Assembly (NCBI RefSeq): GCF_026712245.1
Contig: NZ_JAPPUY010000001.1
Coordinates: 558,001 to 622,000, forward strand
From: Roseateles hydrophilus
GTDB taxonomy: Bacteria; Pseudomonadota; Gammaproteobacteria; Burkholderiales; Burkholderiaceae_C
Direction of reading: 5' to 3'
DNA: 64,000 bases
This document shows positions 6,266 through 63,099 of the stretch, in pieces. Both the position numbers and the translations under genes were made by a program. The notes beneath the pieces were generated by a model. It ran no database searches and had not been told where the DNA came from. It worked only from the letters and a program-made list of their open reading frames with translations. Position 1 is the first letter of the stretch. Every line of letters begins with the position of its first letter.

Positions 6266-6432
6266 TGCCCATGCGCGCTCTTACCCTGCTTCTGCTCACC
6301 GCCCCCGCGCTCGCCCATGAGGGCCATGGCCCGCAAGGTCCGCACCTGCATGGCTGGGACGGCCTGGGAACGCTGGCCCTGGTGGCCGCGGCCGGCGTGG
6401 CGATCTGGTGGTTCACCAAGGGTCGCAAGTGA
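6265..6432 (+). CDS. Small His-rich membrane peptide inside the urease operon
   Basis: A 55-codon frame fills the gap between ureA and ureB exactly: its ATG overlaps the ureA stop (TGATG) and its TGA overlaps the ureB start (TGATG). The product begins with a signal-like hydrophobic stretch ending ALA, followed by a His-rich segment [14 protein letters not shown] (4 His), then a transmembrane helix ([16 protein letters not shown]) and a short basic tail TKGRK. The translational coupling on both sides argues that it is real. The histidines suggest nickel or other metal binding at the outer face of the membrane. I do not know a named family for it. Confidence 0.75.
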
Positions 6433-6737
6433 TGATTCCCGGCGAACTGATCACCGCCGAGGGCGAGCATGAGCTCAACCCTGGCCGCCGCACGCTGACC
6501 GTCAAGGTCGCCAACGTCGGCACGCGGCCCATCCAGGTGGGCTCGCACTACCACTTCGCCGAAACCAACGCGGCGCTGTCCTTCGACCGCGACGCCGCGC
6601 GCGGCATGCGCCTCAACATCTGCAGCGGCACGGCCGTGCGCTTCGAGCCCGGGCAGACGCGCACCGTCGAGCTCGTTGATCTGGCCGGTGACCGCATGGT
6701 CTACGGCTTCCGCGGCCTCGTCCAAGGCAAGCTATGA
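6432..6737 (+). CDS. ureB: Urease subunit beta
   Basis: The 101-residue beta subunit of urease. It starts [19 protein letters not shown] and carries the family segments [21 protein letters not shown] and [19 protein letters not shown]. The ATG at 6432 overlaps the stop of the small upstream gene and gives the canonical N-terminus, so the longer in-frame extension upstream is rejected. Its stop overlaps the ureC start (ATGA). Confidence 0.97.
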
Positions 6738-8452
6738 AAATCAGCCGTCGTGCCTATGCCGAGATGCTCGGCCCCACCGTCGGCGACAAGCTGCGCCTGG
6801 CCGACACCGCCCTCATCATCGAGATCGAGCAAGACCTGACGCTGCGCGCGGGCGGCTACGGTGAAGAGGTGAAGTTCGGCGGTGGCAAGACCGTGCGCGA
6901 CGGCATGGGCCAGTCCCAGCGCCCGAACGGCCCCGACGCCGGTGACGCGGTCGACACCGTCATCACCAACGCCGTCATCCTGGACCACTGGGGCATCGTC
7001 AAGGCCGACATCGGCCTGCGCGGCTGCCGCATCGCGGCCATCGGCAAGGCCGGCAACCCGGATGTGCAGCCCGGGGTGGACATCGTCATCGGCCCGGGCA
7101 CCGAGATCATCGCGGGCGAGGGCTTCATCGTGACGCCCGGCGCCATCGACACCCACATCCACTTCATCTGCCCGCAGCAGATCGAAGAGGCCTTGATGAG
7201 CGGCGTGACCACCATGATCGGCGGCGGCACCGGCCCCGCCACCGGCACGCTGGCCACCACCTGCACGCCCGGGCCGCACCACATTGGCACCATGCTGAAG
7301 GCGGCCGACGCCTTCCCGATGAACCTGGGCTTCCTCGGCAAGGGCAACGCCAGCCGGCCCGCGGCGCTGATGCAGCAGATCGACGCCGGTGCCATCGGCC
7401 TGAAGTTGCACGAGGACTGGGGCACCACGCCCGCGGCCATCGACAACTGCCTGAGCGTGGCCGAGTTGACCGACACGCAGGTCGCCATCCACACCGACAC
7501 GCTCAACGAGAGCGGCTTCGTGGAAGACACCATCGCCGCCTTCAAGGGCCGGACCATCCACAGTTTCCACACCGAGGGCGCGGGCGGCGGCCATGCGCCG
7601 GACATCATGAAGGTGGTGGGCTTGCCCGAAGTGCTGCCCAGCTCCACCAACCCGACGCGGCCGTTCACCGTCAACACGCTGGACGAGCACCTCGACATGC
7701 TGATGGTGTGCCACCACCTGGACGCGGGCATCGCCGAGGACCTGGCCTTCGCCGAGAGCCGCATCCGCCGCGAGACGATCGCGGCCGAAGACATCCTGCA
7801 CGACCTCGGCGCCATCAGCATGTTCTCGTCCGACTCGCAGGCCATGGGCCGCGTGGGCGAGGTGTCGCTGCGCTGCTGGCAGACCGCGCACAAGATGAAG
7901 GTGCAGCGCGGCTCACTGCCGGGTGACGGTGCCGGCAACGACAACGCGCGCGTGAAGCGCTACCTGGCCAAGCTCGCCATCAACCCCGCGCTGGCCCACG
8001 GCATCAGCCACGAAGTCGGCTCCATCGAAGTCGGCAAGTGGGCCGACCTCGTGCTGTGGAAGCCTGCCTTCTTCGGCGTGAAGCCCGCGCTGATCCTGAA
8101 AGGCGGCTTCATCGCCGCCGCCGCGATGGGCGACCCGAATGCCAGCATCCCCACGCCACAGCCGGTGCACTACCGGCCGATGTTCGGCGCGTTCGGCGGC
8201 GCGCTGGCGCAAGGCTCGCTGACCTTCGTCAGCCAGTCGGGTCAGGCGCACGCTGGGAAGCTGGGGTTGTCCAAGACCCTCGTGCCGGTGCATGGCTGCC
8301 GCTCGGTCAAGAAGTCCGACATGGTGCTGAACAACTACCTGCCGACGATGGAGATCGACGCCCAGACCTACGAGGTGCGGGCGGACGGCGTGCTGCTGAC
8401 CTGCGAGCCGGCGAATGAGTTGCCGATGGCGCAGCGGTACTTCCTGTTCTGA
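6734..8452 (+). CDS. ureC: Urease subunit alpha (catalytic)
   Basis: The 572-residue catalytic subunit holding the binuclear nickel site. Visible ligands are His141 and His143 in DTHIHF, the carbamylated Lys224 in GLKLHEDWG, a His pair in [13 protein letters not shown] and [15 protein letters not shown], the flap MVCHHLD, and the Asp of [15 protein letters not shown]. Length is normal (about 567-573). The gene closes the structural block; no accessory gene follows directly, as ureE lies 9.7 kb downstream. Confidence 0.98.
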
Positions 8453-18191: not shown

Positions 18192-18854
18192 ATGATTCAC
18201 GCCACCAAACGCATTGCCGGCGGCGCCGGCCTCGCCTCCGTGCTAGTCAAGCGCGCTGCCACGCTGGAGCTGGACTGGGACACGCGCAGCAAGAGCCGCT
18301 TCTCGGCCACCGACTCCACTGGCCGCGAGATCGGCGTCGTGCTGCCACGCGGCACCACGCTGCGCGGCGGCGATGTGCTGGTCGCCGAGGACGGCTCCAT
18401 GCTGCGCGTCATCGCCGCGGCGCAGCCCGTGCTGCAGGTGCGTTTTTGCAGCGAGCACGGCCAGCCGTTCGACCTGCTGCGCGCCGCCTACCACCTGGGC
18501 AACCGCCATGTGCCGCTGGAGCTGCAGCCGGAGCTGCTGCAGTTCGAGCCCGACCCTGTGCTGGCCGACATGCTGCGCCGCCAGCATCTCATCGTCACCG
18601 AGGCGCAGGCGGCCTTCGAGCCCGAGGGCGGTGCCTACGGCGAGGGTGCCGGGCATGGCCATCACCATGGCCACGAGCATCATGAGCACGCGCATGAGCA
18701 CGGCCCAGGCTGCAACCATGACCACCGGCATGCTGCCGCGCCCGCGCCGGTGCGCAAGCCGCTGGCCATCCCCGTGAAGGCCCACGACCAAGGGCATGAC
18801 CACGGCCATGTCCACGGCCCCGGATGCAATCACGGACATGACCACGACCACTGA
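18192..18854 (+). CDS. ureE: Urease accessory protein UreE, with duplicated His-rich tail
   Basis: A 220-residue nickel metallochaperone that hands Ni to UreG. The N-terminal peptide-binding domain (VLPRGTTLRGGDVLVAEDGS) and the nickel domain with AYHLGNRHVPLEL and the HLIVTEAQAAFEPEGGAYG segment are normal. The C-terminal 60 residues are very rich in His and carry the motif HGPGCNH twice, separated by about 35 residues, which looks like an internal duplication of a metal-binding tail. It starts the accessory block, 9.7 kb from ureC, and overlaps ureF by 17 nt. Confidence 0.96.
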   Translation: MIHATKRIAGGAGLASVLVKRAATLELDWDTRSKSRFSATDSTGREIGVVLPRGTTLRGGDVLVAEDGSMLRVIAAAQPVLQVRFCSEHGQPFDLLRAAYHLGNRHVPLELQPELLQFEPDPVLADMLRRQHLIVTEAQAAFEPEGGAYGEGAGHGHHHGHEHHEHAHEHGPGCNHDHRHAAAPAPVRKPLAIPVKAHDQGHDHGHVHGPGCNHGHDHDH

Positions 18855-19521
18855 CGCCGCGCTGCTGCACCTGCTGTGGCTGGCCTCGCCGGCGCTGCCG
18901 GTGGGCGGTTTCAGCTACTCCGAGGGGCTGGAAGCGGCGGTCGATGCCGGCATCGTGCACGACGAGGCCAGCGCCGGTGACTGGCTGCTGAACCAGCTGG
19001 AGCTCGTGCAGGCGCGTGCCGAGCTGCCGGTGGCTGCTGCCGCCCATGCCGCCGCGCTGGCGCTCGATGGCGCGACGCTGGCCGGGCTCAACGCCTGGGT
19101 GCTGCAGACCCGCGAGACCAGCGAGAGTCTGCAGCAGGCCCAGCAGATGGGCCGCAGCCTGCTGGTGTGGATGCAGGGGCTGGTGCCCGACGCGCCGGTG
19201 CTGCCGCTGCTGCAGGCGCTCAAGCCCGCACCCACCTGGCCCGTCGTCATGGGCGCGGCGGCCGCGTCGCGCGGCGCGGCGCTGGCGCCGGCGCTGCAGG
19301 CCATCGCCTTCGGCTGGGCCGAGAACCTGATGCAGGCCGCCGTGCGTTGCGTGCCGCTGGGCCAGACGTCTGGCCAGCGCCTGCTGGCACGCCTCGTGCA
19401 AGCCATTCCGGGCGCCGTGTCCACGGCATTGGCTGCGCCGGAGCCCGTCGCGTTTGCGCCCTTGCTCGGCGTGCTCGGCGCCCGCCACGAACACCAGTAC
19501 TCACGTCTTTTCAGATCATGA
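18838..19521 (+). CDS. ureF: Urease accessory protein UreF
   Basis: A 227-residue all-helical protein of the UreD-UreF-UreG activation complex. Family marks are [21 protein letters not shown] near the N-terminus and [12 protein letters not shown] at the C-terminus, a position that matches the usual UreF tail. The ATG at 18838 is chosen because the family homology starts about 7 residues later; upstream in-frame codons lie inside the ureE His tail. Its stop overlaps the ureG start (ATGA). Confidence 0.95.
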
Positions 19522-20165
19522 CCGCACCGCTGCACGCCATTCCCCACCGCACCAAAAAACTCCCGCCGCTGCGCGTCGGCGTCGGCGGCCCGGTGGGGTC
19601 GGGCAAGACCACCCTCGTCGAGATGCTGTGCAAGACGATGCGCGAGAAATGGGACCTCGTTGTCGTCACCAACGACATCTACACGAAGGAAGACCAGCGT
19701 CTGCTGACCGTGGCCGGCGCACTGGCGCCCGAGCGCATCATGGGCGTGGAAACGGGCGGCTGCCCGCACACCGCCATCCGTGAGGACTGCTCCATCAACC
19801 TGGAGGCCGTGGACCGCATGCTGGAGAAGTTTCCCGACGCGGACATCGTCTTTGTCGAGAGCGGCGGTGACAACCTGGCCGCCACCTTCAGCCCCGAGCT
19901 GAGCGACCTGACCATCTACGTCATCGACGTGGCCGCCGGCGAGAAGATCCCGCGCAAGGGCGGCCCCGGCATCACGAAGAGCGACCTGTTCGTCATCAAC
20001 AAGACCGACCTGGCCCCGCACGTGGGCGCTGACTTGGACATCATGCGCAGCGACACCGCCCGCATGCGGCCCGTGAAGCCCTGGGTCATGACCAACCTCA
20101 AAACCCGCGAGGGGCTGGCCGAGGTGGTGAGCTTCATCGAGAAGAAGGGCCTGCTCGTTGCCTGA
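19518..20165 (+). CDS. ureG: Urease accessory GTPase UreG
   Basis: A 215-residue SIMIBI GTPase that drives nickel insertion into urease. The P-loop GPVGSGKT spans residues 24-31; the Cys-Pro-His nickel-binding motif appears in [13 protein letters not shown], and the G4-like [10 protein letters not shown] near the C-terminus gives guanine specificity. The N-terminal [13 protein letters not shown] carries two histidines. It overlaps ureF by 4 nt and ureD by 8 nt. Confidence 0.97.
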
Positions 20166-21078
20166 CGCTGTTCGCTGGCCGGCGCGGCTCGCGCTGAGCG
20201 CGGCGCGCGATGGCAGCGGCGCCACGCGCGTGCATGCGCGGCACCACGGCCCGCTGCGCCTGCTGAAGACGCTCTACCCCGAAGGCCCCGGTGTCGCCCA
20301 TGCGGTGTTGGTGCACCCACCCGGCGGCCTGGTGGGCGGCGACCTGCTGGACATCGAACTGGACGTGCAGCCCGGCGCGCACCTGCTGGTCACGACACCG
20401 GCCGCCACACGGTTTTACCGCTGCACCACCGGCGCCGCGCCTCCCCAAGCGGGCGGGCTCCCCTCGGGGGAAGGGCTGGGCGTCGCCCAGCTCCAGCCGT
20501 CTCGATCGCTTGGCGAGGCGGTGCAGGTCGTGCGCGCGACGGTGGGCGAGGGTGCGCGGCTGGAATGGTTGCCGCAAGAGACGCTGGCCTATCCCGACTG
20601 CTTCGCCCGCAACGAAGTGAAGCTGACGCTCGCCCCGGGCGCCAGCCTGTTCGCCACCGAGGTGCTGGGCCTGGGCCTGGCGGGTGCCGGCCAACCGTTT
20701 GACCGTGGGCGGCTGCTGCAGCACCTGGAGGTGACCGGGCTGTGGCTGGACCGTGGCTGGCTGGATGCGGCTGATGCGGCGCTGTTGAACGGCCCCTGCG
20801 GCCTGCGTGGCCACCGTGTGCTGGGCACGCTGGTCTATGCGCAGACGGTGGCCTTGGCGGACGGCGAGTCCTTGCTGGCCGACAGCCGCGCGCTGCTGAC
20901 CGAGGTGCCGTTGAGCGGCGTCACACAACTGCGCAGCCCGGGCGGCAGCGTGTTGCTGATGCGCGTGGTGGGGGACGAGGTGGAGGCGGTCACGGCCGCG
21001 CTGCGCAGCGTGCGCGCGCTGTGGCGCCAGCGGCTGTGGGGGCTGCCCGGCCACGCGCCGCGCATCTGGGCGACCTGA
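20158..21078 (+). CDS. ureD: Urease accessory protein UreD, with an in-frame insertion
   Basis: A 306-residue urease maturation scaffold. Diagnostic segments are [60 protein letters not shown] and the closing [14 protein letters not shown]. The only plausible start is TTG at 20158, overlapping ureG by 8 nt. Between RCTTG and VRATVGEG there is a Gly/Pro/Gln-rich segment of about 28 residues ([16 protein letters not shown]...) that most UreD proteins lack; its DNA is hairpin-rich and looks like an inserted repeat. Here ureD ends the operon, whereas it precedes ureA in most Burkholderiales. Confidence 0.94.
20430..20505 (+). repeat. Hairpin-rich in-frame insertion in ureD
   Basis: The stretch contains CCCC-TC-GGGG (20460-20469) and a perfect GCTGGGC-GTC-GCCCAGC hairpin (20475-20491). 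It interrupts UreD homology without shifting the frame. The style (CTCCCC...CGGGGG) recalls the short GC-rich intergenic repeats of Comamonadaceae-type genomes. Boundaries are approximate. Confidence 0.5.
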
Positions 21079-49835: not shown

Positions 49836-52634
49836 TCAGCCGGTGTTGCGCAGGCCGGCGGCGATGCCGTTGATGGACAGGTGGATGCCGCGCTGCACGC
49901 GCTCCATCGCGGGGTCGTCCTTGGCGATGTGGCGGTAGCGGCGCATCAGCTCGACCTGCAGGTGGTTCAGCGGGTCGATGTACGGGAAGCGGTGCTCGAT
50001 GGAGCGGGCCAACGATGGGTTGGCCGCCAGGCGCTTGGCATCACCGGTGATGAGGTTGAGCGCCGTTTGCGTGCGCTCGAACTCTTCCTTGATGGCCGCG
50101 AAGATGCGCTTGCCCAGCTTCTTGTCTTCCACCAGCTCCACGTAGCGCTCGGCCAGCGCGAGGTCGGCCTTGGCGAGCACCATGTCCAGGTTGGACAGCA
50201 GCGCGCGGAAGAACGGCCAGCCCTTGAGCATGCGCTTGAGCAGCGCCAGGTTCTTGGTGCGCTGGGCCGGCTCCTCGCCGAGGAAGGCCTCCACGCCCGA
50301 GCCGAAGCCGCACCAGCCCGGCAGCGCCACGCGGGCCTGGCCCCATGAGAAGCCCCAGGGGATGGCGCGCAGGTCCTCGATGGCCCGCGTGGCCTTGCGC
50401 GACGCAGGGCGCGAGCCGATGTTCAGCTCGGCGATCTCGCGGATGGGGGTGGACGCGAAGAAGTAGTCGGCAAAGCCTGGCGTGCCGTAGACCAGCTTGC
50501 GGTAGGCCGCGAAGCTCGCATCCGATAGCGCCTGCGCCGCCTGCAGGAAGCTCTTGGGCGCGCTCTGCGTGGGATGCAGCAGCGTGGCCTCCAGCGTGGC
50601 GGCGACCAGCGTCTCCAGGTTGCGCCGGCCGATCTCGGGATGGGCGTACTTGGAGGCGATGACTTCGCCCTGTTCGGTCAGGCGGATCTGGCCGTTCACG
50701 GTGCCCGGGGGCTGGGCCAGGATGGCCTGGTAGCTCGGGCCGCCGCCGCGGCCCACCGTGCCGCCGCGGCCGTGGAACAGGCGCAGCGTGATGGGGCCGA
50801 CGCGCTTGAGTTCGTCGAACAGCTCGACCAGTGCGATCTCGGCGCGGTACAGCTCCCACGACGACGTGAACATGCCGCCGTCCTTGTTGCTGTCGGAGTA
50901 GCCCAGCATGATGTCCTGCTCGCCGCCCGAGCGGTCCACCAGGCCGCGCACGCCGGGCAGCGCGTAGAACTCGCGCATGATCTCCGGCGCGATGCGCAGG
51001 TCGCCGATGGTCTCGAACAGCGGCACGATGATGAGGTCGCTGGTCGCGTACTCGGACAGCACGCCGCGCAGCAGGCCGGTTTCCTTCAGCAGCAGGGCCA
51101 CTTCCAGCAGGTCGCTCACCGATTCGGTGTGGCTGATGATGTAGTGGCGCAGCGCTTCGCGGCCGAAGCGGGCCAGCGCCTCGCGGGCGGCTTCGAAGGT
51201 GGCGAGCTCGAACTGGGTCTTGTCGGTGTAGCTGGCGCCGATGACGCGCAGCGGGCGGGCGTCGTTCAGCAGCTTCAGCAGCAGCGCGCGCTTGGCGGCT
51301 TCATCCAGCGCCGAATAGTCGCTCTCGATGCGCGCGACGGTCAGCAGCTCGGCCAGCACCAGCTCGTGCTGGTCGCTGCTCTGGCGCAGGTCCAGCGTGG
51401 CGAGGTGAAAGCCGAACACCTGCACGGCGCGCATCAGCGGCGCCAGGCGCGGTGCGATCAGCGCCTCGGCGTGGTGGCTCTTCAGCGAGGCCTCGATGGT
51501 TCGCAGGTCGGCCAGCAGCTCGTCGGGCGTGCGGTAGGGGTCCTGCGGCGCGACGGCGTGGCGCAGCGCCTCGGTACCGGTCAATTCGTGCAGCGTGGCG
51601 GCCAGGCGGGCGTACATGCCGGTCAGCGCGCGGCGGTAGGGCTCGTCCAGGCGGTGGGCGTTCTGGTCGGGGCTGCGCTCGGCCAGCGCCTGCATGTCGG
51701 CCGACACGCCGGTCAGGCGCAGCGAGATGGACAGCTCGGCGCCCAGCTCGTGCAGCTCGGTCAGGTAGTGGCGCAGCGCGACCTCGCTTTGGCGCTGCAT
51801 CGCACGCTTCAGCGTGGCGGCACCGACGTTGGGGTTGCCGTCGCGGTCGCCACCGATCCAGTTGCCCATGCGCAGGAAGCTGGGCAGGTGGGTGCCGGGC
51901 AGGTGCTCCTCCAGCTCGGCGTAGAGCTTGGGAATCTGACGCAGGAAGGTCGAGTGGTAGTAGGACAGCGCGTTCTCGATCTCGTCGGCCACGGTCAGCT
52001 TGGAGTAGCGCAGCATGCGCGTCTGCCACAGCTGCGTGATGCGGGCGCGCAGCAGGCTCTCGGTCTCGCGCTGCTCGCGTTCGGTGCCGTCGCGGTCGCG
52101 CTGCTCCAGCAGGCCGGCGACGGCGCGCTCGGCGTCCAGAATGCTCTTGCGCTGCACTTCAGTCGGGTGGGCGGTCAGCACCGGCGAGATGAAGCCGCGC
52201 TGCAGCACCTCGGCGATCTCGGTCGGGCGGATGCCCGCCTCGTGCAGATGCTCCAGGCAGTAGGCCAGGGAGCCGGGCTGCAGGCTGCCGGCGCGCTCGT
52301 GCACGTCGCGACGGCGGATGTGGTGGCGGTCCTCGGCGATGTTGGCCAGGTGCGAGAAATAGCTGAACGCGCGGATGACGCTGACGGCCTGATCGCCCGA
52401 CAGGCTCTTCAGCAACTTGTCGAAGCGCTTGCCGGCTTCCTTGTCGTGCTTGTGGCGATAGGCCACGGACAACTGGCGCACACGCTCGATCAACTCGAAG
52501 GCTTCGCGGCCTTCCTGCTCCCGGATGACGTCGCCGAGCAAACGGCCCAGCAAGCGGATATCTGCGACCAACGGCTCGTTTTTGTCCGTCTTCTTGTCGG
52601 CTTCGGGGCGGGAAGAGGCGGCTCGTGAGGGCAT
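49836..52634 (-). CDS. ppc: Phosphoenolpyruvate carboxylase
   Basis: A 932-residue anaplerotic enzyme forming oxaloacetate from PEP and bicarbonate. The catalytic His motif [13 protein letters not shown], the [10 protein letters not shown] and [14 protein letters not shown] loops, and the C-terminal GLRNTG are present. The first 25 residues are a charged leader ([15 protein letters not shown]). Upstream is a 36-bp leader and a GGTAAC/GTTACC palindrome. In several Burkholderiales ppc lies close to hemC; here the halogenase island lies between. Confidence 0.97.
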
Positions 52635-52901: not shown

Positions 52902-52914
52902 GGGGGGGGGGGGG
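52902..52914. repeat. G13 homopolymer in the ppc-TonB receptor gap
   Basis: Thirteen G in a row. It lies about 490 bp upstream of the receptor start and 270 bp upstream of ppc. Such runs vary by slippage and are also prone to sequencing error. Confidence 0.9.
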
Positions 52915-53056
52915 CGAGTCTGTTGGTCGGGGTAAGCGCCGGGTGCGGGCGGAGCCGGAGCCGCGCAACGTCCTGTTTTGCGGCGACACCGAGGGGGGCT
53001 GTGGCCGCCGGGCCTTGCAAACCCGATTGCGCCGTAAAACGGAATCGACTACCGTT

Positions 53057-53068
53057 GACAACGTTGTC
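53057..53068. promoter_or_regulatory. Candidate LacI-type operator 1 (distal)
   Basis: GACAACGTTGTC is a perfect 12-bp palindrome with a central CG, preceded by TT and followed by TA (TTGACAACGTTGTCTA). CG-centred sites of this kind are typical for LacI-family regulators of TonB receptor loci in Xanthomonas and Caulobacter. It lies about 330 bp before the receptor start. Confidence 0.5.
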
Positions 53069-53312
53069 TATTTCGAGCGCGGCGGCTGGTTCGTGTCGAT
53101 CCATGAGACGGTTGGGATCGCTATCAGTCTGTGTGGGAATGTGTCGGTTTTCTTGCGCTGGCGGCCGTGATCGGTGTGATCGGATCTGCGTGCCCGCGCA
53201 CCCGGGGCGCCTGTCTGTGGCAGGGTCGCTACGCAGGTAAACCCCAGCAGGATGGCGGTATCCACAAAAATACAGTCCGCATGTGGCTTGAGATGGCAGC
53301 CTCTTTCAACCA

Positions 53313-53331
53313 TTGTTGGTATCGCTAACAA
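53313..53331. promoter_or_regulatory. Candidate LacI-type operator 2 (proximal)
   Basis: TTGTTGGTATCGCTAACAA is an imperfect 19-bp palindrome: the five outer bases on each side (TTGTT / AACAA) and some inner bases match. It lies 71 bp before the receptor ATG, a place suited to repression. Confidence 0.5.
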
Positions 53332-53401: not shown

Positions 53402-56400
53402 ATGAAGCATCCCCAAACTTCCAAGAACCGGCGGTTGGCGGCGCGCACGCGCCTGCACCCGGTGGCCGTGGCGTCCACGCTGGCGCTGTTGGCTGGCGCT
53501 GGTGCCGCCCAAGCGCAGCAGGCGGCGCCGGCCGCTGGCGCCCAGTCGCTGGAGACCGTGGTCATCACCGGCATCCGCAAGTCGCTGGACAGCGCCGTGT
53601 CGCTCAAGCGCGAGGCGCGCGGTCTGGTGGACGGCATCGTTGCCGAGGACATCGGCAAGTTCCCGGATACCAACCTCGCCGAGTCGATGCAGCGCATCGC
53701 TGGCGTGTCCATCGACCGCAACGCCAGCGGCGAAGGCTCGAAGGTCACGGTGCGCGGGGTGGGGCCGCAGTTCAACATGGTGCTGCTGAACGGCCGGCAA
53801 ATGCCGACGTCTGATGGCGCCGGGCGTGCCTTCGACTTCGCCAACCTGTCGTCCGACTCCATTTCAGCGCTCGAGGTGTACAAGACGGCCCGCGCCTCGT
53901 CGCCGACCGGCGGCATTGGCGCCACCATCAACGTCAAGACGGCCCGCCCGCTCGATGTGCGCGAGCGCATTGCCAGCATCGGCGTCAAGGCCAATTTCGA
54001 CCAGTCAGTTTCGCGCCTGCCCAACGAGATTCAGGGCGACAAGGTGACGCCGGAGATCTCAGGCCTTTACAGCGACGTCTTCGGCAACCGCACGCTGGGC
54101 ATTGCCATCAGCGGCAGTTACTCCAAGCGCAGCTCGGGCTCCAACAACGCGTTCACTGGCAACGGCTGGGAAACCCGTCGCGTCACGACCGGGACCAACG
54201 GCACCGCCTATGCGGGCGCGCCGGCCTCCAACCTGGTCAACTTCCCGACCAGCGGCTTCATCTCGCACACCAACGACGTGCGTTACCGCACGAGCGGCCT
54301 GGAGCGGGAGCGCATCAACGGCCAGGCCGTGTTGCAGTTCTCCCCGACGAAGGAGCTGAAGTTCACGGTGGACCACACCCTGGCCATCAACGCGACGACG
54401 AACCGCGCCATCGAGAACTCATCCTGGTTCGGTCCGTCGTTCTCCGGCCCGCTGAACGGCCGGCCGCCCACGACGTTTGTCCGCGCGGGCGATGTCTCCG
54501 ACCCGGTCATCCAGACGGCCACCTGGGACGGCACGCACGACTACGCGATGTACGCGGCCCTGTTCGCGAACAAGACCAAGCTGAACTCCACCGGTTTCAA
54601 CACGGCCTGGAAGGTCAGCGAGAACCTGAGCGTCGACCTGGATGTCCACTCGTCCAAGTCCAGGACCCGTCCTGACAGCCCCTACGGCTCCAACAACGTC
54701 ATTGACCTGGCACTGTTCAACCAGGGCAACACGACGATGTACTACGACCAGAAGTTCCCTGTCATGGAGTCCAAGGGCCTGGCGTATGACTCGAACAAGA
54801 CGACCGTCACCGGTTCGCAGTTCGAGAACAACATTTCCGACCAGGACGTCGACCAAGTCCAGTTGAGCGGCACCTACCAACTGAGCACGGACGACAAGCT
54901 GCACGTCGGCCTGGGGTTCACCAAGCTGAAGAACCGCGCGGCCGGCTCCAACAACTTCCACGGCGACTGGGGCGGTATCGGTCCTCAGGGTTCGTTCAAG
55001 AACCAGAACGTGGCGCAGTACAGCCTGCCCAGCTTCTTCAGCCGCATCCCCGGCAGCGGCGACCCGCGCCAGTTCCAGACGTTCTTCGTGCCCAACTTCG
55101 AGGCGCTGCGTGCGCAGGCGATCAAGAACGCACAGTCGTACCGTCCGACCTCGCTTGAGCCCGGCGCGCCGCTGTCTGCCGCCGAGGCCGAGGCGTACTT
55201 CTCGCCGTACCCTGACTTCACCAAGGGCAACGACTGGCGCACGACCGAGAAGTCCACCGCGGTCTACGGCCAGTGGGATCACTCCTTCGACACTGCCATT
55301 CCGATGAACCTGTCGGTCGGTATGCGGTACGAGGAAACCAAGATCACGTCGTCATCGCAAGTGACCAGCTTCTCCGGCGCGGTCTGGTACGCGGAGAACG
55401 AGGTGCGCCTGACCGGCGACACCCGCACCTTCGGTACCAAGACGGGCAAATACAGCTACTGGCTGCCGAGCATCGACTGGGATGCCGACCTGACGTCCAA
55501 CCTCAAGGTGCGCGCCAGCTACGGTGAAAACATCGGTCGCCCGAACTTCGGTGACATGCTGGGCGGCATCGCGCTGAACAAGGACTCCGGGCGCTACAAC
55601 GTCAATGGGGCCGGTTCGACGGGTGACCCGGCCCTGCGGCCGCTGAAGTCCAAGAACCTGGACCTGTCTGCCGAGTACTACTTCGCCAAGTCGTCGTACG
55701 TGGCGGCCGGCATCTTCCACAAGAAGGTGACCGACTTCTTCACGACGAAGGTGGTGCAGCAGACCTTCCCGGGCTTGAATCAGCCGGCCAGCGGCACGTA
55801 CTTCAACGCTGCGCGCGCCGCCGGCATTCCTGCCGATGCGCCGAAGCTGCTGCGCAACTACATTTTCCAGAACTACAACGGACAGCCGGGAGTCACCGTC
55901 ACCGACGCCACGGATCCGACCTTCCTGAAGGGCAACATTGACGGCACCGTCCCAGGCGCTCAGCCGCTGGTGTTCAACATCTCGACGCCGTCCAACGGCG
56001 GCGGCGACACGATCAAGGGCTTGGAGTTCAACTTCCAGCACATGTTCGGCAGCAGCGGTTTTGGCGTCTCCGGCAACTACACCTTGGTGCGCAGCGGCTT
56101 GAAGTACATCAACAACGCCGCGACCACCGATGTGCAGGCGCCGCTGGTGGGTGTCAGCGATTCCGCCAACCTGGTGGGCTTCTTCGAGAACGATGTGTGG
56201 TCGATCCGCGGCGCCTACAACTGGCGTGATGCCTTCCTCGCAGCGACGAATGACAACGGCAACAACCCGCGTTACGTCGATGCGTACGGTCAGGTGGACG
56301 TGTCCATCGGCTACAAGTTCGGCAAGAACCTCACGCTGCAGGCCGACATGCTGAACCTGAACGATGGCTACATCCGCAGCTACGGCCGCACCAAGACGCA

Positions 56401-56461
56401 GCACATCTCCGCCATCCAGACGGGCCGGCGTTACCTGATCGGTGCTCGCTACCGCTTCTGA
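53402..56461 (+). CDS. TonB-dependent outer-membrane receptor, Caulobacter/Xanthomonas type
   Basis: A 1019-residue outer-membrane transporter. The signal peptide ends near AQAQQ (residue 37). The plug domain (about 50-200) has ETVVITGIRKSLDSAVSLKREA, AEDIGKFPDTNLAESMQRIAGVSI and VTVRGVGPQFNMVLLNGRQ; the beta-barrel follows and ends in an aromatic residue (LIGARYRF), as needed for barrel insertion. The family normally imports carbohydrates or other large nutrients driven by ExbBD-TonB. It opens the halogenase island and is followed by a strong terminator. Codon use looks slightly less GC-rich than in its neighbours. Confidence 0.93.
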   Translation: MKHPQTSKNRRLAARTRLHPVAVASTLALLAGAGAAQAQQAAPAAGAQSLETVVITGIRKSLDSAVSLKREARGLVDGIVAEDIGKFPDTNLAESMQRIAGVSIDRNASGEGSKVTVRGVGPQFNMVLLNGRQMPTSDGAGRAFDFANLSSDSISALEVYKTARASSPTGGIGATINVKTARPLDVRERIASIGVKANFDQSVSRLPNEIQGDKVTPEISGLYSDVFGNRTLGIAISGSYSKRSSGSNNAFTGNGWETRRVTTGTNGTAYAGAPASNLVNFPTSGFISHTNDVRYRTSGLERERINGQAVLQFSPTKELKFTVDHTLAINATTNRAIENSSWFGPSFSGPLNGRPPTTFVRAGDVSDPVIQTATWDGTHDYAMYAALFANKTKLNSTGFNTAWKVSENLSVDLDVHSSKSRTRPDSPYGSNNVIDLALFNQGNTTMYYDQKFPVMESKGLAYDSNKTTVTGSQFENNISDQDVDQVQLSGTYQLSTDDKLHVGLGFTKLKNRAAGSNNFHGDWGGIGPQGSFKNQNVAQYSLPSFFSRIPGSGDPRQFQTFFVPNFEALRAQAIKNAQSYRPTSLEPGAPLSAAEAEAYFSPYPDFTKGNDWRTTEKSTAVYGQWDHSFDTAIPMNLSVGMRYEETKITSSSQVTSFSGAVWYAENEVRLTGDTRTFGTKTGKYSYWLPSIDWDADLTSNLKVRASYGENIGRPNFGDMLGGIALNKDSGRYNVNGAGSTGDPALRPLKSKNLDLSAEYYFAKSSYVAAGIFHKKVTDFFTTKVVQQTFPGLNQPASGTYFNAARAAGIPADAPKLLRNYIFQNYNGQPGVTVTDATDPTFLKGNIDGTVPGAQPLVFNISTPSNGGGDTIKGLEFNFQHMFGSSGFGVSGNYTLVRSGLKYINNAATTDVQAPLVGVSDSANLVGFFENDVWSIRGAYNWRDAFLAATNDNGNNPRYVDAYGQVDVSIGYKFGKNLTLQADMLNLNDGYIRSYGRTKTQHISAIQTGRRYLIGARYRF

Positions 56462-56519
56462 GCGATGAGCACCGCCGTCCGGCGACCGCCCTTCGGGGCC
56501 GCGCTGGACGGGCCTGATT

Positions 56520-56564
56520 GGCCGAGGTAGGCGCCCAGCGCCCGCCTCGGCCTCGTTTGTTTTT
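56520..56564 (+). terminator. Intrinsic terminator/attenuator after the TonB receptor
   Basis: GGCCGAGG (56520-56527) pairs with CCTCGGCC (56545-56552), with an inner GGCGC/GCGCC stem, and is followed by the T-rich tail TCGTTTGTTTTTC. It lies 59 bp after the receptor stop and 54 bp before the halogenase start, so the downstream genes get less transcript by read-through or have their own promoter. Confidence 0.85.
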
Positions 56565-56617
56565 CAGCGTTGCTGAGCCCATGCGGCGTGACTGGCAGCC
56601 GCGCGGCTCAGCTTTCC

Positions 56618-58201
56618 ATGACGAGTTCCGAGGTGACGACAGCTGTTCGACGTATCGTGGTGCTGGGAGGCGGTTCAGCCGGTTGGCTGACCGCTGCGAC
56701 CCTGGCCGCAGAGCTCGGCGGTGAAGGCCCCGATGCGCTGCAGATCACGCTCATCGAGTCTCCCGATGTGCCCACCATCGGGGTGGGCGAAGGCACCTGG
56801 CCGACGATGCGCGCCACGCTGCAGCGCATCGGCCTCAGCGAGGTCGATCTCGTTCGCGCCTGCGATGCGGCCTTCAAGCAGGGCTCGCGCTTTGACGGCT
56901 GGGTGCATGGCGGCGCGGGTGACCGCTACTACCACCCGTTCACGTTGCCGCACGGCTGGGGTGATGTCGACCTCACCGCAGCCTGGCTGCAGGGCCGTGG
57001 CGCGCAGCCGTTTGCCGACAGCGTGGGGGCGCAGCCGCAGGTGTGCGACGCCCACCTCGCGCCCAAGCAGACGACGACGCCGGAGTTCGCGGGCGTCATG
57101 AACTACGGCTATCACGTGGACGCCGTCAAGCTGGGCCAACTGCTGCAGCGACACGCGACGGCACGGCTCGGTGTGCGCCATGTCGTCGACCACGTCAGCG
57201 CCGTGCGCTCCCACGAGAACGGCGACATCGCTGCGCTGACGACCCGCGTCCACGGCGACATCGAGGGCGAGCTCTTCATCGACTGCTCGGGCCTGGCCAG
57301 CTTGCTGCTGGGCCAGCACTACGGGGTCGCGCTGCACTCGGTGCAGGGCGTGCTGTTCAACGACAGCGCGCTGGCCGTGCAGGTGCCCCATGTCGACGCA
57401 CAGGCGCCGCTGGCCTCCGCCACGGTGTCCACCGCGCATGCCGAGGGCTGGACCTGGGACATCGCGCTGCCCACGCGCCGCGGCATCGGCCTGGTGTTCT
57501 CCAGCAGCCACACCGACGACGCCGCCGCCGAGCGCGCGCTGTGCGCTCACCTGCAGCGCAACGGGCTGTCGCTGGGCGAGGCGTCGCCGCGCCGGCTGCG
57601 CTTCAACCCCGGCTACCGTGAGCAGTTCTGGCACCGCAACTGCGTCGCTGTCGGCCTGGCGGCCGGGTTCATCGAGCCGCTGGAGGCGTCGGCACTGGCC
57701 TTGGTCGAGTTGTCCGCCGCGTTCATCCGTGACGAGATGCCTGCCAACCGCAGCGACATGGCGCTGGTGGCGCGCCGCTTCAACGAGACCTTTCGCTACC
57801 GCTGGTCACGCATCATCGACTTCCTGAAGCTGCACTACGTGCTGAACCGCCGCGACGCTGTCGACGGCGGCGATGGCGCCGGCTACTGGCGCGAGCACCG
57901 CATGCCGCTCACGCAGCCCGACTCCTTGCGTGAGCTGCTGCAACTGTGGCGGCACCGTGCCCCGTCGCGCCACGATGTCGACCGCGCGGAGGAGGTCTTC
58001 CCCGCGGCCAGCTACCAGTACATCCTCTACGGCATGCAGGCCGTGCCCGCCCTGCGGGCGCGGCCTGCCGACCGACTGGCCGCTGCGCAGGCCGGCCTGC
58101 GCGACGTGACGACAATCACCCGGCGCCTGTTGGGCGGGCTGCCCCGCCACCGCGATCTCCTCCAACACATCCGCGCGCACGGCATGCCGCCGTCCGCCTG
58201 A
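56618..58201 (+). CDS. Flavin-dependent (tryptophan) halogenase family protein 1
   Basis: A 527-residue FADH2-dependent halogenase-like protein. The FAD loop GGGSAGW is at residues 17-23; Lys87 in AFKQGSRFDGW matches the lysine that carries or guides hypohalous acid in PrnA/RebH; the halogenase WxWxI element is GWTWDIALP (the Pro is shifted by two). The GFIEPLEAS segment (Glu353) covers the region of the catalytic glutamate. Relatives in TonB-receptor loci brominate indole in vitro. ATG 56618 (MTSSEVTTAVRR) is chosen; an in-frame TTG at 56570 is weaker. Confidence 0.88.
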   Translation: MTSSEVTTAVRRIVVLGGGSAGWLTAATLAAELGGEGPDALQITLIESPDVPTIGVGEGTWPTMRATLQRIGLSEVDLVRACDAAFKQGSRFDGWVHGGAGDRYYHPFTLPHGWGDVDLTAAWLQGRGAQPFADSVGAQPQVCDAHLAPKQTTTPEFAGVMNYGYHVDAVKLGQLLQRHATARLGVRHVVDHVSAVRSHENGDIAALTTRVHGDIEGELFIDCSGLASLLLGQHYGVALHSVQGVLFNDSALAVQVPHVDAQAPLASATVSTAHAEGWTWDIALPTRRGIGLVFSSSHTDDAAAERALCAHLQRNGLSLGEASPRRLRFNPGYREQFWHRNCVAVGLAAGFIEPLEASALALVELSAAFIRDEMPANRSDMALVARRFNETFRYRWSRIIDFLKLHYVLNRRDAVDGGDGAGYWREHRMPLTQPDSLRELLQLWRHRAPSRHDVDRAEEVFPAASYQYILYGMQAVPALRARPADRLAAAQAGLRDVTTITRRLLGGLPRHRDLLQHIRAHGMPPSA

Positions 58202-58219
58202 ACCCACCGACGAGACCCC

Positions 58220-58915
58220 ATGCTGCAAATCCTCAACAACATCCAGCACAAGGACCTGCGCGTCTTCACCCAGCGTGGCGCGCAATGGGGCGACGACATC
58301 ATGTCGGCGCCCGCCACGGTGGACGAGTTCCGCAAGCTGCAGGCGCATTACCCCATCGTGTTCCAGCCGGACGGGCAGGGCGGTTTTGCGCCGGCCGTGC
58401 TGTTCGGGCTGCAGCACGGCGAGAACCTGTTCCTGAACGAGCAGGGCTGGGACGCCGACTACCTGCCGTTGTCCGTGCAGCGCCTGCCGTTCGCCATCGG
58501 CGTGGCCGACGATGAGCTGCGCATGATGGTGGACATGGACAGCAAGCGCATCGCCCACGGCGCCGAGGGCGAAGCCGTCTTCCTGCCGCAGGGCGGCACC
58601 AGCGACCTCACCGAGCACGCGAACTCGGTGCTGCGCACGCTGCACGAGGGCCTGCAGGCCACGGCCGACTTCGTGCAGACGCTGAGGCAGCATGACTTGC
58701 TCGAGCCCTTCGTGCTGGACGTCGAGCGCCCGGACGGCTCGCACGGCCAGCTGACGGGCTTCTATTTCATCCACGAGGAGCGCCTCGCCGCGCTGGACAC
58801 CGCCACCGTGGCCATGCTGCACCAGGCGGACTACCTACAGCCCATCTACATGGTCATCGCGTCGCTGTCCAACTTCCCGGTGCTGATCAAGCGCCACCTT
58901 GCCCGCGAGGTCTAG
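58220..58915 (+). CDS. SapC family protein
   Basis: A 231-residue protein of the SapC family, named after an S-layer-associated Campylobacter protein but with no proven enzymatic role. Typical parts are HYPIVFQPDGQGGFAPAVLFGLQHGENLFL and WDADYLPLSVQRLPFAIG, and the C-terminal ASLSNFPVLIKRHLA. It lacks a signal peptide. It lies 18 bp after halogenase 1 and 3 bp before the next gene, in the standard TonB receptor-halogenase-SapC-cupin order seen in Caulobacter and Xanthomonas. Confidence 0.88.
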   Translation: MLQILNNIQHKDLRVFTQRGAQWGDDIMSAPATVDEFRKLQAHYPIVFQPDGQGGFAPAVLFGLQHGENLFLNEQGWDADYLPLSVQRLPFAIGVADDELRMMVDMDSKRIAHGAEGEAVFLPQGGTSDLTEHANSVLRTLHEGLQATADFVQTLRQHDLLEPFVLDVERPDGSHGQLTGFYFIHEERLAALDTATVAMLHQADYLQPIYMVIASLSNFPVLIKRHLAREV

Positions 58916-58918
58916 CCC

Positions 58919-59893
58919 ATGCTGGCCGAGGTCCTGCGGGGCGTGAGCACTGACGTGCTGCAGTCCACCCAGCCCGTGCTGCTGCGCGGACTGGTGCGGC
59001 ACTGGCCGCTGGTGCAGGCGGCGCAGCAGTCGGATGCGGCGTTTTGCGGCTACCTGCGTGGCTTTGGCGCCGACACCCGCCTGAGCCTGTGGCGCGGCGC
59101 GCCGGAGATCGACGGGCGTTTCTTCTACAACGCCGACTTCAGCGGTTTCAACTTCAGGCACGAGACGCTGGCGTTTGGCGCGCTGCTGGACGAGCTGCTG
59201 GCCGACACAGCCGATACGCTCTATCTCGGCTCCACCGAGATCGACCGCTGCTTTCCCGGCCTGCGCGCGCCCAACGACCTGCCCGAGCTGGCCGGCTTTC
59301 GCCCGCATGTGAGCTTGTGGCTGGGCAACCGCATGCGCGTCGCCACGCATTTCGATCAGCCCGACAACATCGCCTGCGTCGTGGCTGGGCGGCGCCGCTT
59401 CACGCTGTTCCCGCCGGATCAGGTGGCCAACCTCTACATCGGCCCGCTGGACCTGACGCCCGCCGGGCAGCCCATCAGCCTCGTGGACCATGCGCACCCC
59501 GATCTCGACCGCTTCCCGCGCTACGCCGAGGCACTGCGGCAGGCGCAGAGCTTCGAGCTGCTGCCGGGCGATGCGCTCTTCATTCCCAGCCAGTGGTGGC
59601 ATGGCGTCGAATCGCTGGACGGCGTCAACGGCCTGGTCAACTTCTGGTGGCGCCAGTCGCCGGAGTTCATGGACCCGGCGCTGAGCACGCTGCTGATGGC
59701 CCTGCTGTCGCTGCGCGACCTGCCGCCCGCCCAGCGCGAGGCCTGGCGCGCGCTGTTCAACCACTACGTCTTTGACGCCGACGAACAGACGGCCGCCCAC
59801 ATCCCGCCCGCCGCGCGGGGCTTGCTGGCGCCGCTGGACGAGTTCGGCGCCCGCCAGCTGCGCACGCTGCTGCGCAACCGACTGAACCGCTAG
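58919..59893 (+). CDS. JmjC/cupin-like Fe(II)-oxygenase domain protein
   Basis: A 324-residue cupin_8/JmjC-like protein, related to proteins sometimes called Pass1 in halogenase loci. The iron facial triad is visible as His144 and Asp146 (THFDQPDN) and His228 (SQWWHGVES), with LFPPDQVANLYIGPLD in between and a trailing helical region. The expected activity is 2-oxoglutarate-dependent hydroxylation of a protein or small molecule. No partner residue or substrate is shown. Start is 3 bp after the SapC stop. Confidence 0.87.
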   Translation: MLAEVLRGVSTDVLQSTQPVLLRGLVRHWPLVQAAQQSDAAFCGYLRGFGADTRLSLWRGAPEIDGRFFYNADFSGFNFRHETLAFGALLDELLADTADTLYLGSTEIDRCFPGLRAPNDLPELAGFRPHVSLWLGNRMRVATHFDQPDNIACVVAGRRRFTLFPPDQVANLYIGPLDLTPAGQPISLVDHAHPDLDRFPRYAEALRQAQSFELLPGDALFIPSQWWHGVESLDGVNGLVNFWWRQSPEFMDPALSTLLMALLSLRDLPPAQREAWRALFNHYVFDADEQTAAHIPPAARGLLAPLDEFGARQLRTLLRNRLNR

Positions 59894-59900
59894 CTTTGCC

Positions 59901-62132
59901 ATGAACCCAGCCACCCCTGCCCAACCCGTTCGTCGCGTCGTCATCGCCGGTGGCGGCACCGCCGGTTGGATGGTCGCTGCCGGCCTGTCCAAGTGCCTGG
60001 GCCGCCAGGTCGACATCCGGCTCGTCGAGTCCGAGGAAATCGGCACCGTGGGCGTGGGCGAGGCCACCATCCCCACGCTGCACATCCTTCATCAGATCCT
60101 GGACCTGGACGAGCGGGAGTTCATCCAGGCCACGCAGGCCACGTTCAAGCTGGGCATCAGCTTCGAGAACTGGCGCAACGTCGGCGAGGACTATTTCCAC
60201 TCCTTCGGCAGGACGGGCCAGGGCCATTGGACCGCAGGCTTCCACCACTTCTGGCTGGAAGGCCGTCGGCGCGGCCTGGCCAGCAGCTACGGCGACTACT
60301 GCCTGGAACTGCGCGCGGCGATGGAGAACCGCTTCGCGCTGCTGCCCGACAACGGCATCAACTACGCCTACCACCTCGACGCCACGCTGTACGGCCAGTA
60401 CCTGCGCCGCTTCTCCGAGGCGCTGGGCGTGCAGCGCATCGAGGGCAAGATCGCGCAGGTCCGCCAGCATGCCGACACCGGCTTCCTCACCGGCCTGCAG
60501 CTGGCCGACGGCCGGCTGATCGAAGGTGACTTCTTCATCGACTGCACCGGCATGCGCTCGCTGCTGCTGGGCGAGACGTTGGGCGTGCCCTACGAGAGCT
60601 GGTCGCACTGGTTGCCCTGCGACAGCGCGCTGGCCGTGCAGACCACGCGCGCCGGCGAGCCCGTGCCCTACACCCGCTCCATCGCCCATCCCTGGGGCTG
60701 GCAGTGGCGCATCCCGCTGCAGCACCGCGTCGGCAACGGCATCGTCTACAGCAGCAAGCATGTCAGCGACGACGAGGCCAAGGCCGCGCTGCTGGCCAAT
60801 GTCGAGGGCGAGGTGCTGCGCGAGCCGCGCGTCATCCGCTTCACGCCGGGCCAGCGCGAGCGGGTCTGGGAGAAGAACTGCGTCGCCATCGGCCTGTCCA
60901 GCGGCTTCCTGGAGCCGCTGGAGTCGACCAGCATCCACCTGATCCAGAAGGGCCTGACGCGGCTCGTCGAGCTCTTCCCCACCGATGGCGTGCGCCAGAG
61001 CGACATCGACGAGTACAACCTGCAGACCCGCGACGCCATCGAGGTCGTGCGCGACTTCATCATCCTGCACTACCACGTGACGAACCGCGACGACTCCGCC
61101 TTCTGGCGCGGCTGCCGCGACATGGCCGTGCCGTCGCTGCTGGCGCATCGCATCCAGCACTTCCGCGACACCGCCCGCATCATGCTGCGCCAGGGCGAGC
61201 TGTTCGCCGAGAACTCCTGGGTGCAGGTCATGATGGGGCAGGGCATCCTGCCCGCCAGCCATCACCCCATCACGCGCAACATGGACGACCGCGCGCTGGG
61301 CGACTTTCTGTCCGGCATCCGCAAAGACGTGGCCCGCACGCTGATGAAGCTGCCCAAGCATCAGCAGTTCATCGACGGCTTCTGCCCCGCGCCCCAGGCT
61401 GCCGTGCCAGCCAGTGCGGCACGGCTGCACATCAACCCGGACGCCCGCGTCGAGGTGATGACGCTGGCCGACGGCGCACGCGTCTTCATCGTCGATGACT
61501 TCGCGCAGGACCCGGACGCGCTGGTCGCGCTGCTGCAGGCTGATCAGCAGCGCTTCCAGGCGGTGCCGGGCCATCCTTACCCCGGCCCGCAGCTGGCCCT
61601 GCCTGACGGCATGCTGGCCGAGCTGGACGCCTTCTTCCGCCAGCGTCTGGGTGGCGCGCTGCAACTCGGCGCGCCGCTGGGCGCGATGGCGCGCTTCTCG
61701 CGCGTCGTGCAAGACCCCGCCACGCTCGACGCCCGCCAGCGCCTGTGCCACCGCGACGACTCCGGCCTGGCCGCCGACGAAACGGTGGCCGCTGCCGTGC
61801 ACTACCTGTTCAAGGACGAGCAGCTGGGCGGCACAGTGTTCTTCCGCCCGCTGATGTCCGAGACCGACACCGCCCGCCTGCGGCATGACGCCGATGTGCT
61901 GGATGCCAGCGCGTTTGGCGACAAATACGGCATCGCGCCCGGCTACATGACGGACAGCAACCGCCACTTCGAGGTCATCGGCCGCGTGCCGGCCCGGTGG
62001 AACCGCGCGATCTTTTATGACGGCGCGATCTTCCATTCCGGTGACATCCGCTGGGCCGCTGCGAAAGCGGGCTACCTGGCCGACCCCGGCCGCCTGACCA
62101 TCAACGCGTTCTTCAAGAGCCGCAAGCGCTGA
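59901..62132 (+). CDS. Flavin halogenase 2 fused to a C-terminal DUF6445-like domain
   Basis: A 743-residue fusion. The halogenase part (about 1-500) has GGGTAGW at 17-23, Lys83 in [18 protein letters not shown] and [10 protein letters not shown] (Glu338), all intact. After a linker (about 500-515, [15 protein letters not shown]) comes an approximately 225-residue domain beginning [19 protein letters not shown], with [11 protein letters not shown] and ending [27 protein letters not shown], which looks like the DUF6445/prolyl-hydroxylase-like oxygenase fold with a final conserved His. Halogenase and oxygenase-like modules are usually separate genes. Overall activity and substrate are unknown. 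Confidence 0.88.
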
Positions 62133-62166: not shown

Positions 62167-63099
62167 ATGACCGCTTCCACCTCCATCACCATCGCCACGC
62201 GCGAGAGCCGCCTGGCGCTGTGGCAGGCCGAACATGTGCAGGCCCGCCTGGGCCGCGAACTCGGCATCACCGCCACGCTGCTGGGCATGACCACCCGTGG
62301 CGACCAGATCCTCGACCGCACGCTGTCCAAGGTCGGCGGCAAGGGCCTGTTCGTGAAGGAGCTGGAAACCGCGCTGGCCGAGGGCCGCGCGCAGCTGGCC
62401 GTGCACTCGCTGAAGGACGTGCCCATGGAGCTGCCGGAGGGCTTCACGCTCGCGGCAGTGCTGGAGCGGGAAGACCCGCGGGACGCCTTCGTGTCCAACG
62501 ACTACGCCTCGCTGGCCGACCTGCCCGAGGGCGCTGTCGTCGGCAGCTCCAGCCTGCGCCGCGTGACGCAACTGCTTAGCCTGCGGCCCGACCTGCGCGT
62601 GGAGCCGCTGCGCGGCAATCTCGACACCCGGCTGCGCAAGCTCGACGAGGGCGGCTACCACGCCATCGTGCTGGCCGCCGCCGGCCTGAAGCGCCTGGAC
62701 CTGGCTCACCGCGTGCGTGCGGTGTTCGAGGTCGAGCAGATGCTGCCCTGCGCCGGTCAGGGTGCGCTGGGCCTGGAGATCCGCACCGACGACGGCGCAC
62801 TGGCCGAGGCGTTGGCCCGGCTGGCGCACATGCCCACGCAGCTGGCCTGCGAGGCCGAGCGGGCTGTGTCCCGCGCGCTGGGCGGCAGCTGCAGCCTGCC
62901 GCTGGCGGCCCATGCGCGCTGGCAAGGCGCCACGCTGTGCCTGGACGCGGCGCTGGGCCATGCCGAACTGCACACCTCACCGCTGCTGCGGGCGCCGGCG
63001 GCCGCTGACGTGACCGATGTGGCCAGCGCCCGCGCGCTGGGCCAGCAGGCTGCCGCGCAGCTGCGCGAGCAGGGCGCCGGCGCTTACCTGCCTGGATGA
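62167..63099 (+). CDS. hemC: Hydroxymethylbilane synthase (porphobilinogen deaminase)
   Basis: A 310-residue heme-pathway enzyme that joins four porphobilinogens. The dipyrromethane cofactor attaches to Cys242 ([11 protein letters not shown]), and the family segments [36 protein letters not shown] and [10 protein letters not shown] are all present. It overlaps hemD by 4 nt. The 34-bp gap upstream follows the halogenase island. Confidence 0.97.

Follow-up and report, generated by a model that had tools for sequence, protein, structure and literature searches.

Introduction

Halogenase genes in the neighbourhood of receptor genes have been noticed before in the genomes of Caulobacter and Xanthomonas. 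Here, we analyse such a neighbourhood in Roseateles hydrophilus, a five-gene island coding for a TonB-dependent receptor, a flavin-dependent halogenase-like protein (FDH1), a SapC-family protein, a Cupin_8 protein and a second halogenase (FDH2) fused to a DUF6445 domain. The island lies in a stretch of 64,000 nucleotides (contig NZ_JAPPUY010000001.1, positions 558,001 to 622,000), referred to below as the window.

With regard to uptake and regulation, the locus is comparable to carbohydrate-utilization loci that include TonB receptors and to the xylan regulon (XylR and xyl-box) known from Xanthomonas and Caulobacter, as described in the accessible parts of three reports (PMC1790865, PMC10380989, PMC7748154). 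Shared features are a TonB receptor of the Xanthomonas-Caulobacter type, a xyl-box-like operator and orthologues in xylose/xylan gene sets, but the receptor operon of the window stands apart from degradative genes and contains four oxidative-cassette genes; the word "halogenase" is absent from the main text of all three papers. With regard to the enzymes, the closest characterized proteins are the indole-active variant A halogenases BrvH (6frl) and Xcc4156 (6y1w). FDH2 is a close homologue of both and shares their motifs, and the brvH gene, too, has a second halogenase gene adjoining it; the natural substrates of BrvH and Xcc4156 were not known to the authors, according to the accessible parts of their papers. 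In contrast to these enzymes, the FDH2 of the window is fused to DUF6445, and FDH1 belongs to another, 2pyx/9ltb-like branch with a changed WxWxIP motif. The cupin shares a His-x-Asp...His iron site and its sequence family with the protein hydroxylases FIH and JMJD5.

Among the literature matches listed (titles and opening lines of abstracts, subscription papers lying outside the scope), none linked halogenases to TonB sugar loci. One report, as far as accessible, has a single tryptophan halogenase gene among Sphingomonas colony-morphology hits with no TonB link (PMC11340318), and the accessible parts of two others make no connection between halogenases and TonB sugar loci (PMC11337851, PMC4911050).

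Results

The island is probably a displaced part of a xylan-uptake system

The original prediction, made from the DNA alone, had taken the island for a cassette inserted between ppc and hemC, and the comparison of gene order with relatives bears this out. In five of five tested relatives without the set at this place, ppc and hemC are direct neighbours with nothing between them (62-416 bp apart by our own gene calls), so that the insertion is real; these five relatives carry related cassettes elsewhere in their genomes. In the 21 loci closest to that of the window (L067-L087), both genes flank the set in 14 cases and one of them, at the end of the record, in 3, while 3 loci lie elsewhere (L070, L082, L086) and the remaining one sits on a short record. 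The eight closest (L067-L074), with SapC proteins 81-86% identical to that of the window, come from Pelomonas, Roseateles and unnamed Burkholderiales. Judged by gene order, the insertion between ppc and hemC took place in a single Roseateles/Pelomonas lineage.

Two of the five genomes in which the ppc-hemC junction is empty, Roseateles violae PFR6 (G034, loci L056/L082) and a Roseateles metagenome-assembled genome (G084, loci L055/L070), carry the orthologous five genes inside xylose/xylan loci. Both of these contain xylA, a gene of glycoside hydrolase (GH) family 43, an MFS_2 sugar transporter gene and a ROK regulator gene; the locus of R. violae additionally has xylB, a LacI gene and a further transporter gene. 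The xylA genes gave no Pfam match at 1e-6, but NCBIfam TIGR02630 confirms the copy in L056 as well as one in the genome of the window (L021); the copy in L055 is a fragment at the end of the record, whose match to TIGR02630 is below the cut-off. At the third locus outside ppc-hemC, L086, LacI genes, a GH1 gene and a sugar ABC transporter are nearby. In a carbohydrate-utilization (CUT) locus, a TonB receptor stands next to degradative enzymes, an inner-membrane transporter and a regulator. None of these partners accompanies the set in the window, and they are present beside the orthologues in L055/L070 and L056/L082; by gene content, we therefore class the window set as a displaced part and not as a complete CUT locus.

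Two palindromes lie in the 767 bp that separate ppc from the receptor gene. One of them, TGGTATCGCTAACA, differs by a single base from the xyl-box TGGTAGCGCTAACA, quoted as the XylR operator in two Xanthomonas papers as far as their text was accessible, and is a candidate operator of the XylR regulon. A symmetric pattern covering both sequences, which was chosen after the window and its orthologues had been seen, occurs at five sites in the genome, compared to none for the reversed control pattern. All five sites are intergenic by our own gene calls. Apart from the site at the window receptor, one is next to a GH10 xylanase, one to a GH43 beta-xylosidase and one to a GDSL esterase, and the last has on one side a LacI gene with GH43 behind it and on the other a GH2-like gene; three of the four outside the window thus adjoin GH10 or GH43 genes.

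The same pattern was counted in 19 loci of the window clade with 700 bp of upstream DNA (the window included; L068, L079 and L087 dropped) and in 54 other cassettes. Counted from the called starts, it is present without mismatch in 16 of the 19 and in none of the 54, and the three loci lacking it (L070, L082, L086) are those outside ppc-hemC. A strict count, before the longest possible reading frame, gives 14/19 and 0/54, the sites of L080 and L083 lying inside the frame. The published xyl-box itself is found with at most one mismatch in 4/19 versus 0/54, and with at most two in 11/19 versus 2/54. Looser LacI-type palindromes precede 12 of the 54 other cassettes at up to one mismatch and 42 at up to two, compared to 0.2 and 2.2 for shuffled sequences. 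A LacI-type operator is thus the rule before such receptors, the xyl-box type being that of the window clade at ppc-hemC.

The second palindrome (M1, TTGACAACGTTGTCTA) is present ahead of the receptor gene in 16 of the 19 window-clade loci with at most one mismatch to TGACARCGYTGTCA, in none of them exactly, and in the genome of the window a GH9 gene is directly preceded by a copy. It was rejected as a xylan-specific site because it is exact in 7 of the 54 other cassettes. A run of 13 G at 52902-52914, also upstream of the receptor gene, may be variable in length or an artefact of the assembly.

Because of the xyl-box, the orthologues in xylose/xylan loci and the empty ppc-hemC junction of relatives, we regard the assignment of the island to xylan as probable, and the island as most likely a displaced piece of a XylR-controlled xylan system. 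The "unknown chemistry" of the original prediction thus still holds for the reaction, but is too broad for the physiology, given the operator and the placement of the orthologues.

The cassette is conserved and recurs at receptor genes

Profile matches confirm five intact genes on the plus strand in the order predicted (Table 1). Relatives were collected from GTDB genomes with a SapC alignment, and the best 80 of 302 confirmed ones (L067-L146) were surveyed. On the same strand and within 6 kb of SapC, a receptor gene is present in 75 of the 80 loci and the cupin gene in 78 (not in L104 and L110); the five loci without a receptor have only 0.1-3.4 kb of DNA available upstream of SapC. Halogenase 2 is likewise present in 78/80, the exceptions being L090 and L127. 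The arrangement, being kept across the surveyed loci, is not due to chance, and, as had been proposed, the importer, the two halogenases, SapC and the oxygenase modules belong to a single conserved unit, with receptor, SapC, cupin and FDH2 as its core. One of the exceptions, L127 from Lysobacter sp. yr284, has receptor, SapC and cupin, yet no halogenase match in the 20 kb examined. The 59 more distant cassettes (L088-L146) have a GH16 or GH1 homologue in 29 cases, any of the queried sugar genes or regulators in 38 and none in 21, where the query set was small and some of the loci are short.

The 4.77 Mb genome of the window itself contains 10 full-length halogenases at six places and 19 TIGR01782 receptors over the cut-off. 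Five of the six halogenase places adjoin such receptors, and four of the five have glycoside hydrolases (Table 1). This is far above chance, because the DNA within roughly 10 kb of a TIGR01782 receptor amounts to no more than about 9% of the genome (an arithmetic estimate). The copy on C9 has the gene order receptor-FDH1-SapC-cupin-FDH2 as in the window, without the DUF6445 fusion. All three Cupin_8 genes, all three DUF6445 genes and two of the three SapC genes of the genome are at receptor-halogenase places; the two families of 2-oxoglutarate (2OG) oxygenases, Cupin_8 and DUF6445, are therefore confined, in this genome, to halogenase loci beside TonB receptors. The window set is thus one of several receptor-linked oxidative cassettes in the genome.

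Halogenases

Variant A flavin-dependent halogenases carry the motifs GxGxxG, a catalytic lysine, EPxE and WxWxIP. The catalytic residues of both window halogenases had been predicted to be intact, and the FKxG lysines, GxGxxG loops and EPLE motifs are indeed all found, the lysine being residue 83 in FDH2 and 88 in FDH1 counted from the ATG at 56615 (87 in the earlier numbering); a TTG at 56570 is a possible alternative start. By its motifs (GGGTAG, K83, EPLES and WQWRI followed by P), FDH2 can be classed as a variant A halogenase, and it is homologous to BrvH (E 1.2e-141) and Xcc4156 (E 5.1e-207). FDH1, by sequence a halogenase-like protein of the 2pyx/9ltb-like branch, has WTWDIA at the place of WxWxIP.

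FDH1 is missing in 10 of the 21 window-clade loci (L072, L077-L081, L083-L086). In these, the gap between receptor and SapC measures 118-323 bp versus about 1.7-1.9 kb otherwise, so that the absence is clean, and the FDH1-less cassettes provide a natural set of variants for comparison with the carriers. The FDH1-less loci occupy three distinct positions on the receptor tree, and the usual WxWxIP is altered in 57/57 FDH1-type sequences (WxWDI, then G or A, then L). Both observations would suit proteins that no longer halogenate and serve instead as flavin-dependent oxygenases, or as redox or oxygen sensors tuning the production of the receptor. We consider such a role unlikely, since all 57 FDH1-type and all 80 FDH2-type sequences retain the catalytic lysine and EPxE, and relatives of FDH2 halogenate in vitro according to the accessible parts of their reports. 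The sixth halogenase place of the genome is a solitary WxWDI-type halogenase gene with no receptor beside it at L018:9822-11357, near transketolase and GAPDH genes.

Oxygenase modules and SapC

The original prediction counted one or two oxygenase-like modules, and there are two: the cupin, which is FIH/JMJD5-like, and DUF6445, which is prolyl-hydroxylase-like and fused to FDH2. The predicted iron triad of the cupin (His144, Asp146, His228) was confirmed, the H-x-D...H motif being invariant in 12/12 aligned sequences. Its closest solved sequences are those of FIH and JMJD5, with matches spanning about residues 98-248 only. It differs from FIH in that Arg159, also invariant in 12/12, stands at the position of the FIH lysine which we take to bind 2OG; the protein is, by Pfam, a member of Cupin_8 and is not classed as an FIH.

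DUF6445 makes up the C-terminal ~226 residues of halogenase 2. Its putative Fe(II)/2OG site (His617, Asp619, His712, Arg731) is invariant in 20/20 aligned relatives, and this H-x-D...H...R arrangement, together with a double-stranded beta-helix fold in the predicted structure, places it among the 2OG oxygenases of the prolyl-hydroxylase type. It resembles OGFOD1, Tpa1, PHD2 and bacterial P4H, but is only 9-18% identical to them and differs by its fusion behind a halogenase, and the scores of some small-molecule oxygenases come close. SapC matches PF07277 with 223 bits against a cut-off of 28.9; for its predicted structure, which is of high confidence, no clear match in the PDB was found with two programs. 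Weakly similar SapC genes are common (61 of 150 family genomes have some SapC match), and a stand-alone gene of the family, about 29% identical to the cassette SapC, lies at L019:10372-11106 near what by eye appear to be homogentisate-pathway genes.

Possible targets of the cassette

Three observations argue for a protein target: across loci serving different glycans, the cassette keeps its receptor while the sugar changes; each of the two oxygenases is similar to protein hydroxylases; and the halogenases studied so far refuse free tryptophan. Modification of an outer-membrane protein, one of the original suggestions, may take place, but no signature emerged from the receptors in two tests, which weighs against it. 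Firstly, the six receptors next to halogenases, among the 19 of the genome, are scattered over the receptor tree, and only one alignment column is common to all six and rare (at most 35%) in the other 13, compared to 0.6 expected from label permutation, which ignores relatedness; one of the 13 (C1:934k) is about 9 kb from halogenase genes. Secondly, in 21 receptors of the window clade (the window and 20 of L067-L087; L068 was dropped as its receptor was not in the alignment), Tyr622 is the sole column that splits carriers of FDH1 from the others with at most one exception in each group, with Tyr in 10/11 where FDH1 is present and Phe in 10/10 where it is absent. We rejected it as a modification site, since outside the clade 10 of 11 FDH1-less receptors have Tyr and many FDH1-carrying ones have Phe.

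Alternatively, the enzymes might act on a small molecule brought in along with the glycan, for instance an aromatic group decorating xylan, with the receptor importing the conjugate. According to the accessible parts of the respective papers, free indole serves BrvH as a substrate for bromination, and Xcc4156 accepts indole as well as indole derivatives. Moreover, Foldseek places DUF6445 near small-molecule oxygenases. However, the same enzyme families are found at receptor loci with GH16/GH1, GH2/GH27/GH1, GH18 and GH35/GH13, for which a shared small substrate is hard to see, and most glycans of those families are without aromatic groups; on these grounds we think this alternative improbable. 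Least likely is a cassette producing a small metabolite or peptide that carries halogen or hydroxyl groups (siderophore-like or for signalling) and is taken up by the receptor: the receptor adjoins, and natural-product pathways often include members of halogenase and oxygenase families, but the set has no gene for backbone synthesis, a precursor peptide hidden between receptor and FDH1 was rejected as no conserved small open reading frame was seen there by eye, the operator is of the sugar type, and the orthologues are placed in sugar loci. As to the scavenging of halide radicals, also suggested originally, nothing in the gene content points there, although no dedicated test was made.

Table 1 Features of the island and its flanks (window coordinates) and the other receptor-linked halogenase places of the genome.
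Feature	Position	Strand	Remarks
ppc	49836-52634	-	Flank of the set
M1, palindromic operator-like site	53055-53070	.	Sequence pattern
Candidate xyl-box-like LacI/XylR operator	53317-53330	+	71 bp before receptor gene
TonB-dependent receptor	53402-56461	+	TIGR01782, E 6.1e-175; 1019 aa
FDH1, flavin-dependent halogenase-like	about 56615-58201	+	PF04820, E 9.4e-116; 528 aa counted from ATG
SapC-family protein	58220-58915	+	PF07277, E 4.5e-66; 231 aa
Cupin_8/JmjC protein	58919-59893	+	PF13621, E 1.1e-66
Halogenase 2 gene (FDH2 + DUF6445)	59901-62132	+	PF04820, E 3.3e-188
FDH2 domain of halogenase 2	59901-61415	+	Closest Xcc4156 (6y1w), then 9luq, BrvH (6frl)
DUF6445 domain of halogenase 2	61437-62114	+	PF20043, E 2.5e-61; residues 513-738
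hemC	62167-63099	+	Flank of the set
Halogenase place on C1	C1:943-949k		Receptor; GH35, glucokinase, GH13 close; GH88, LacI within about 15 kb
Halogenase place on C9			Receptor, LacI, GH16
Halogenase place on C10			Receptor, GH2, GH1, LacI, MFS, GH27
Halogenase place on C12			Receptor, GH18

Other observations

Elsewhere in the window, the urease genes are split into two blocks with ~10 kb of other genes in between, one with the gamma, beta and alpha subunits (5963-8452) and one with UreE, UreF, a UreG-type GTPase and UreD (18192-21078), and a selenocysteine tRNA (914-1009) follows immediately after the end of a SelB elongation factor gene (the two together at 16-1009). Two multidomain proteins were seen at other loci: a glucokinase domain joined to an RpiR-type regulator with helix-turn-helix and SIS parts (L013:14650-16566), and a GH115 domain joined to a GH8 domain (L021:13415-17098).

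Discussion

Taken as a whole, and with the weight on its physiological part, we lean towards the view that the island is a displaced XylR-controlled xylan-uptake module whose oxidative cassette modifies a protein. By sequence, the receptor is a member of the TonB-Xanth-Caul family, and we infer that it is an importer of xylo-oligosaccharides. From what is known of these families, xylose or xylo-oligosaccharides would release XylR and thereby switch on the operon, and the receptor would import xylo-oligosaccharides. The co-expressed cytoplasmic enzymes, FDH1, FDH2, the FIH-like cupin and the prolyl-hydroxylase-like domain, might then act on the side chains of a protein by oxidation or halogenation, with SapC as a possible partner or scaffold. 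The simplest target would be the receptor chain before its export, but another protein made under the same conditions may be the target instead. This modification step is put forward as a tentative proposal.

Its extension to a general principle is more doubtful still: polysaccharide-feeding Proteobacteria might halogenate and hydroxylate their outer-membrane receptors, or another nutrient-induced protein, by means of dedicated cytoplasmic cassettes, passed on together with the receptor and turned on by the sugar, with FDH2, SapC and the FIH-like cupin as the core and FDH1 and the prolyl-hydroxylase domain as optional parts. If true, this would provide a natural role for halogenases of the BrvH/Xcc4156 type and would add a novel type of protein modification to those of the bacterial envelope. 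The analysis gives these orphan halogenases a setting, which is probably XylR-controlled xylan uptake, a candidate inducer, xylose or xylan, and a genetic partner in the form of a single receptor.

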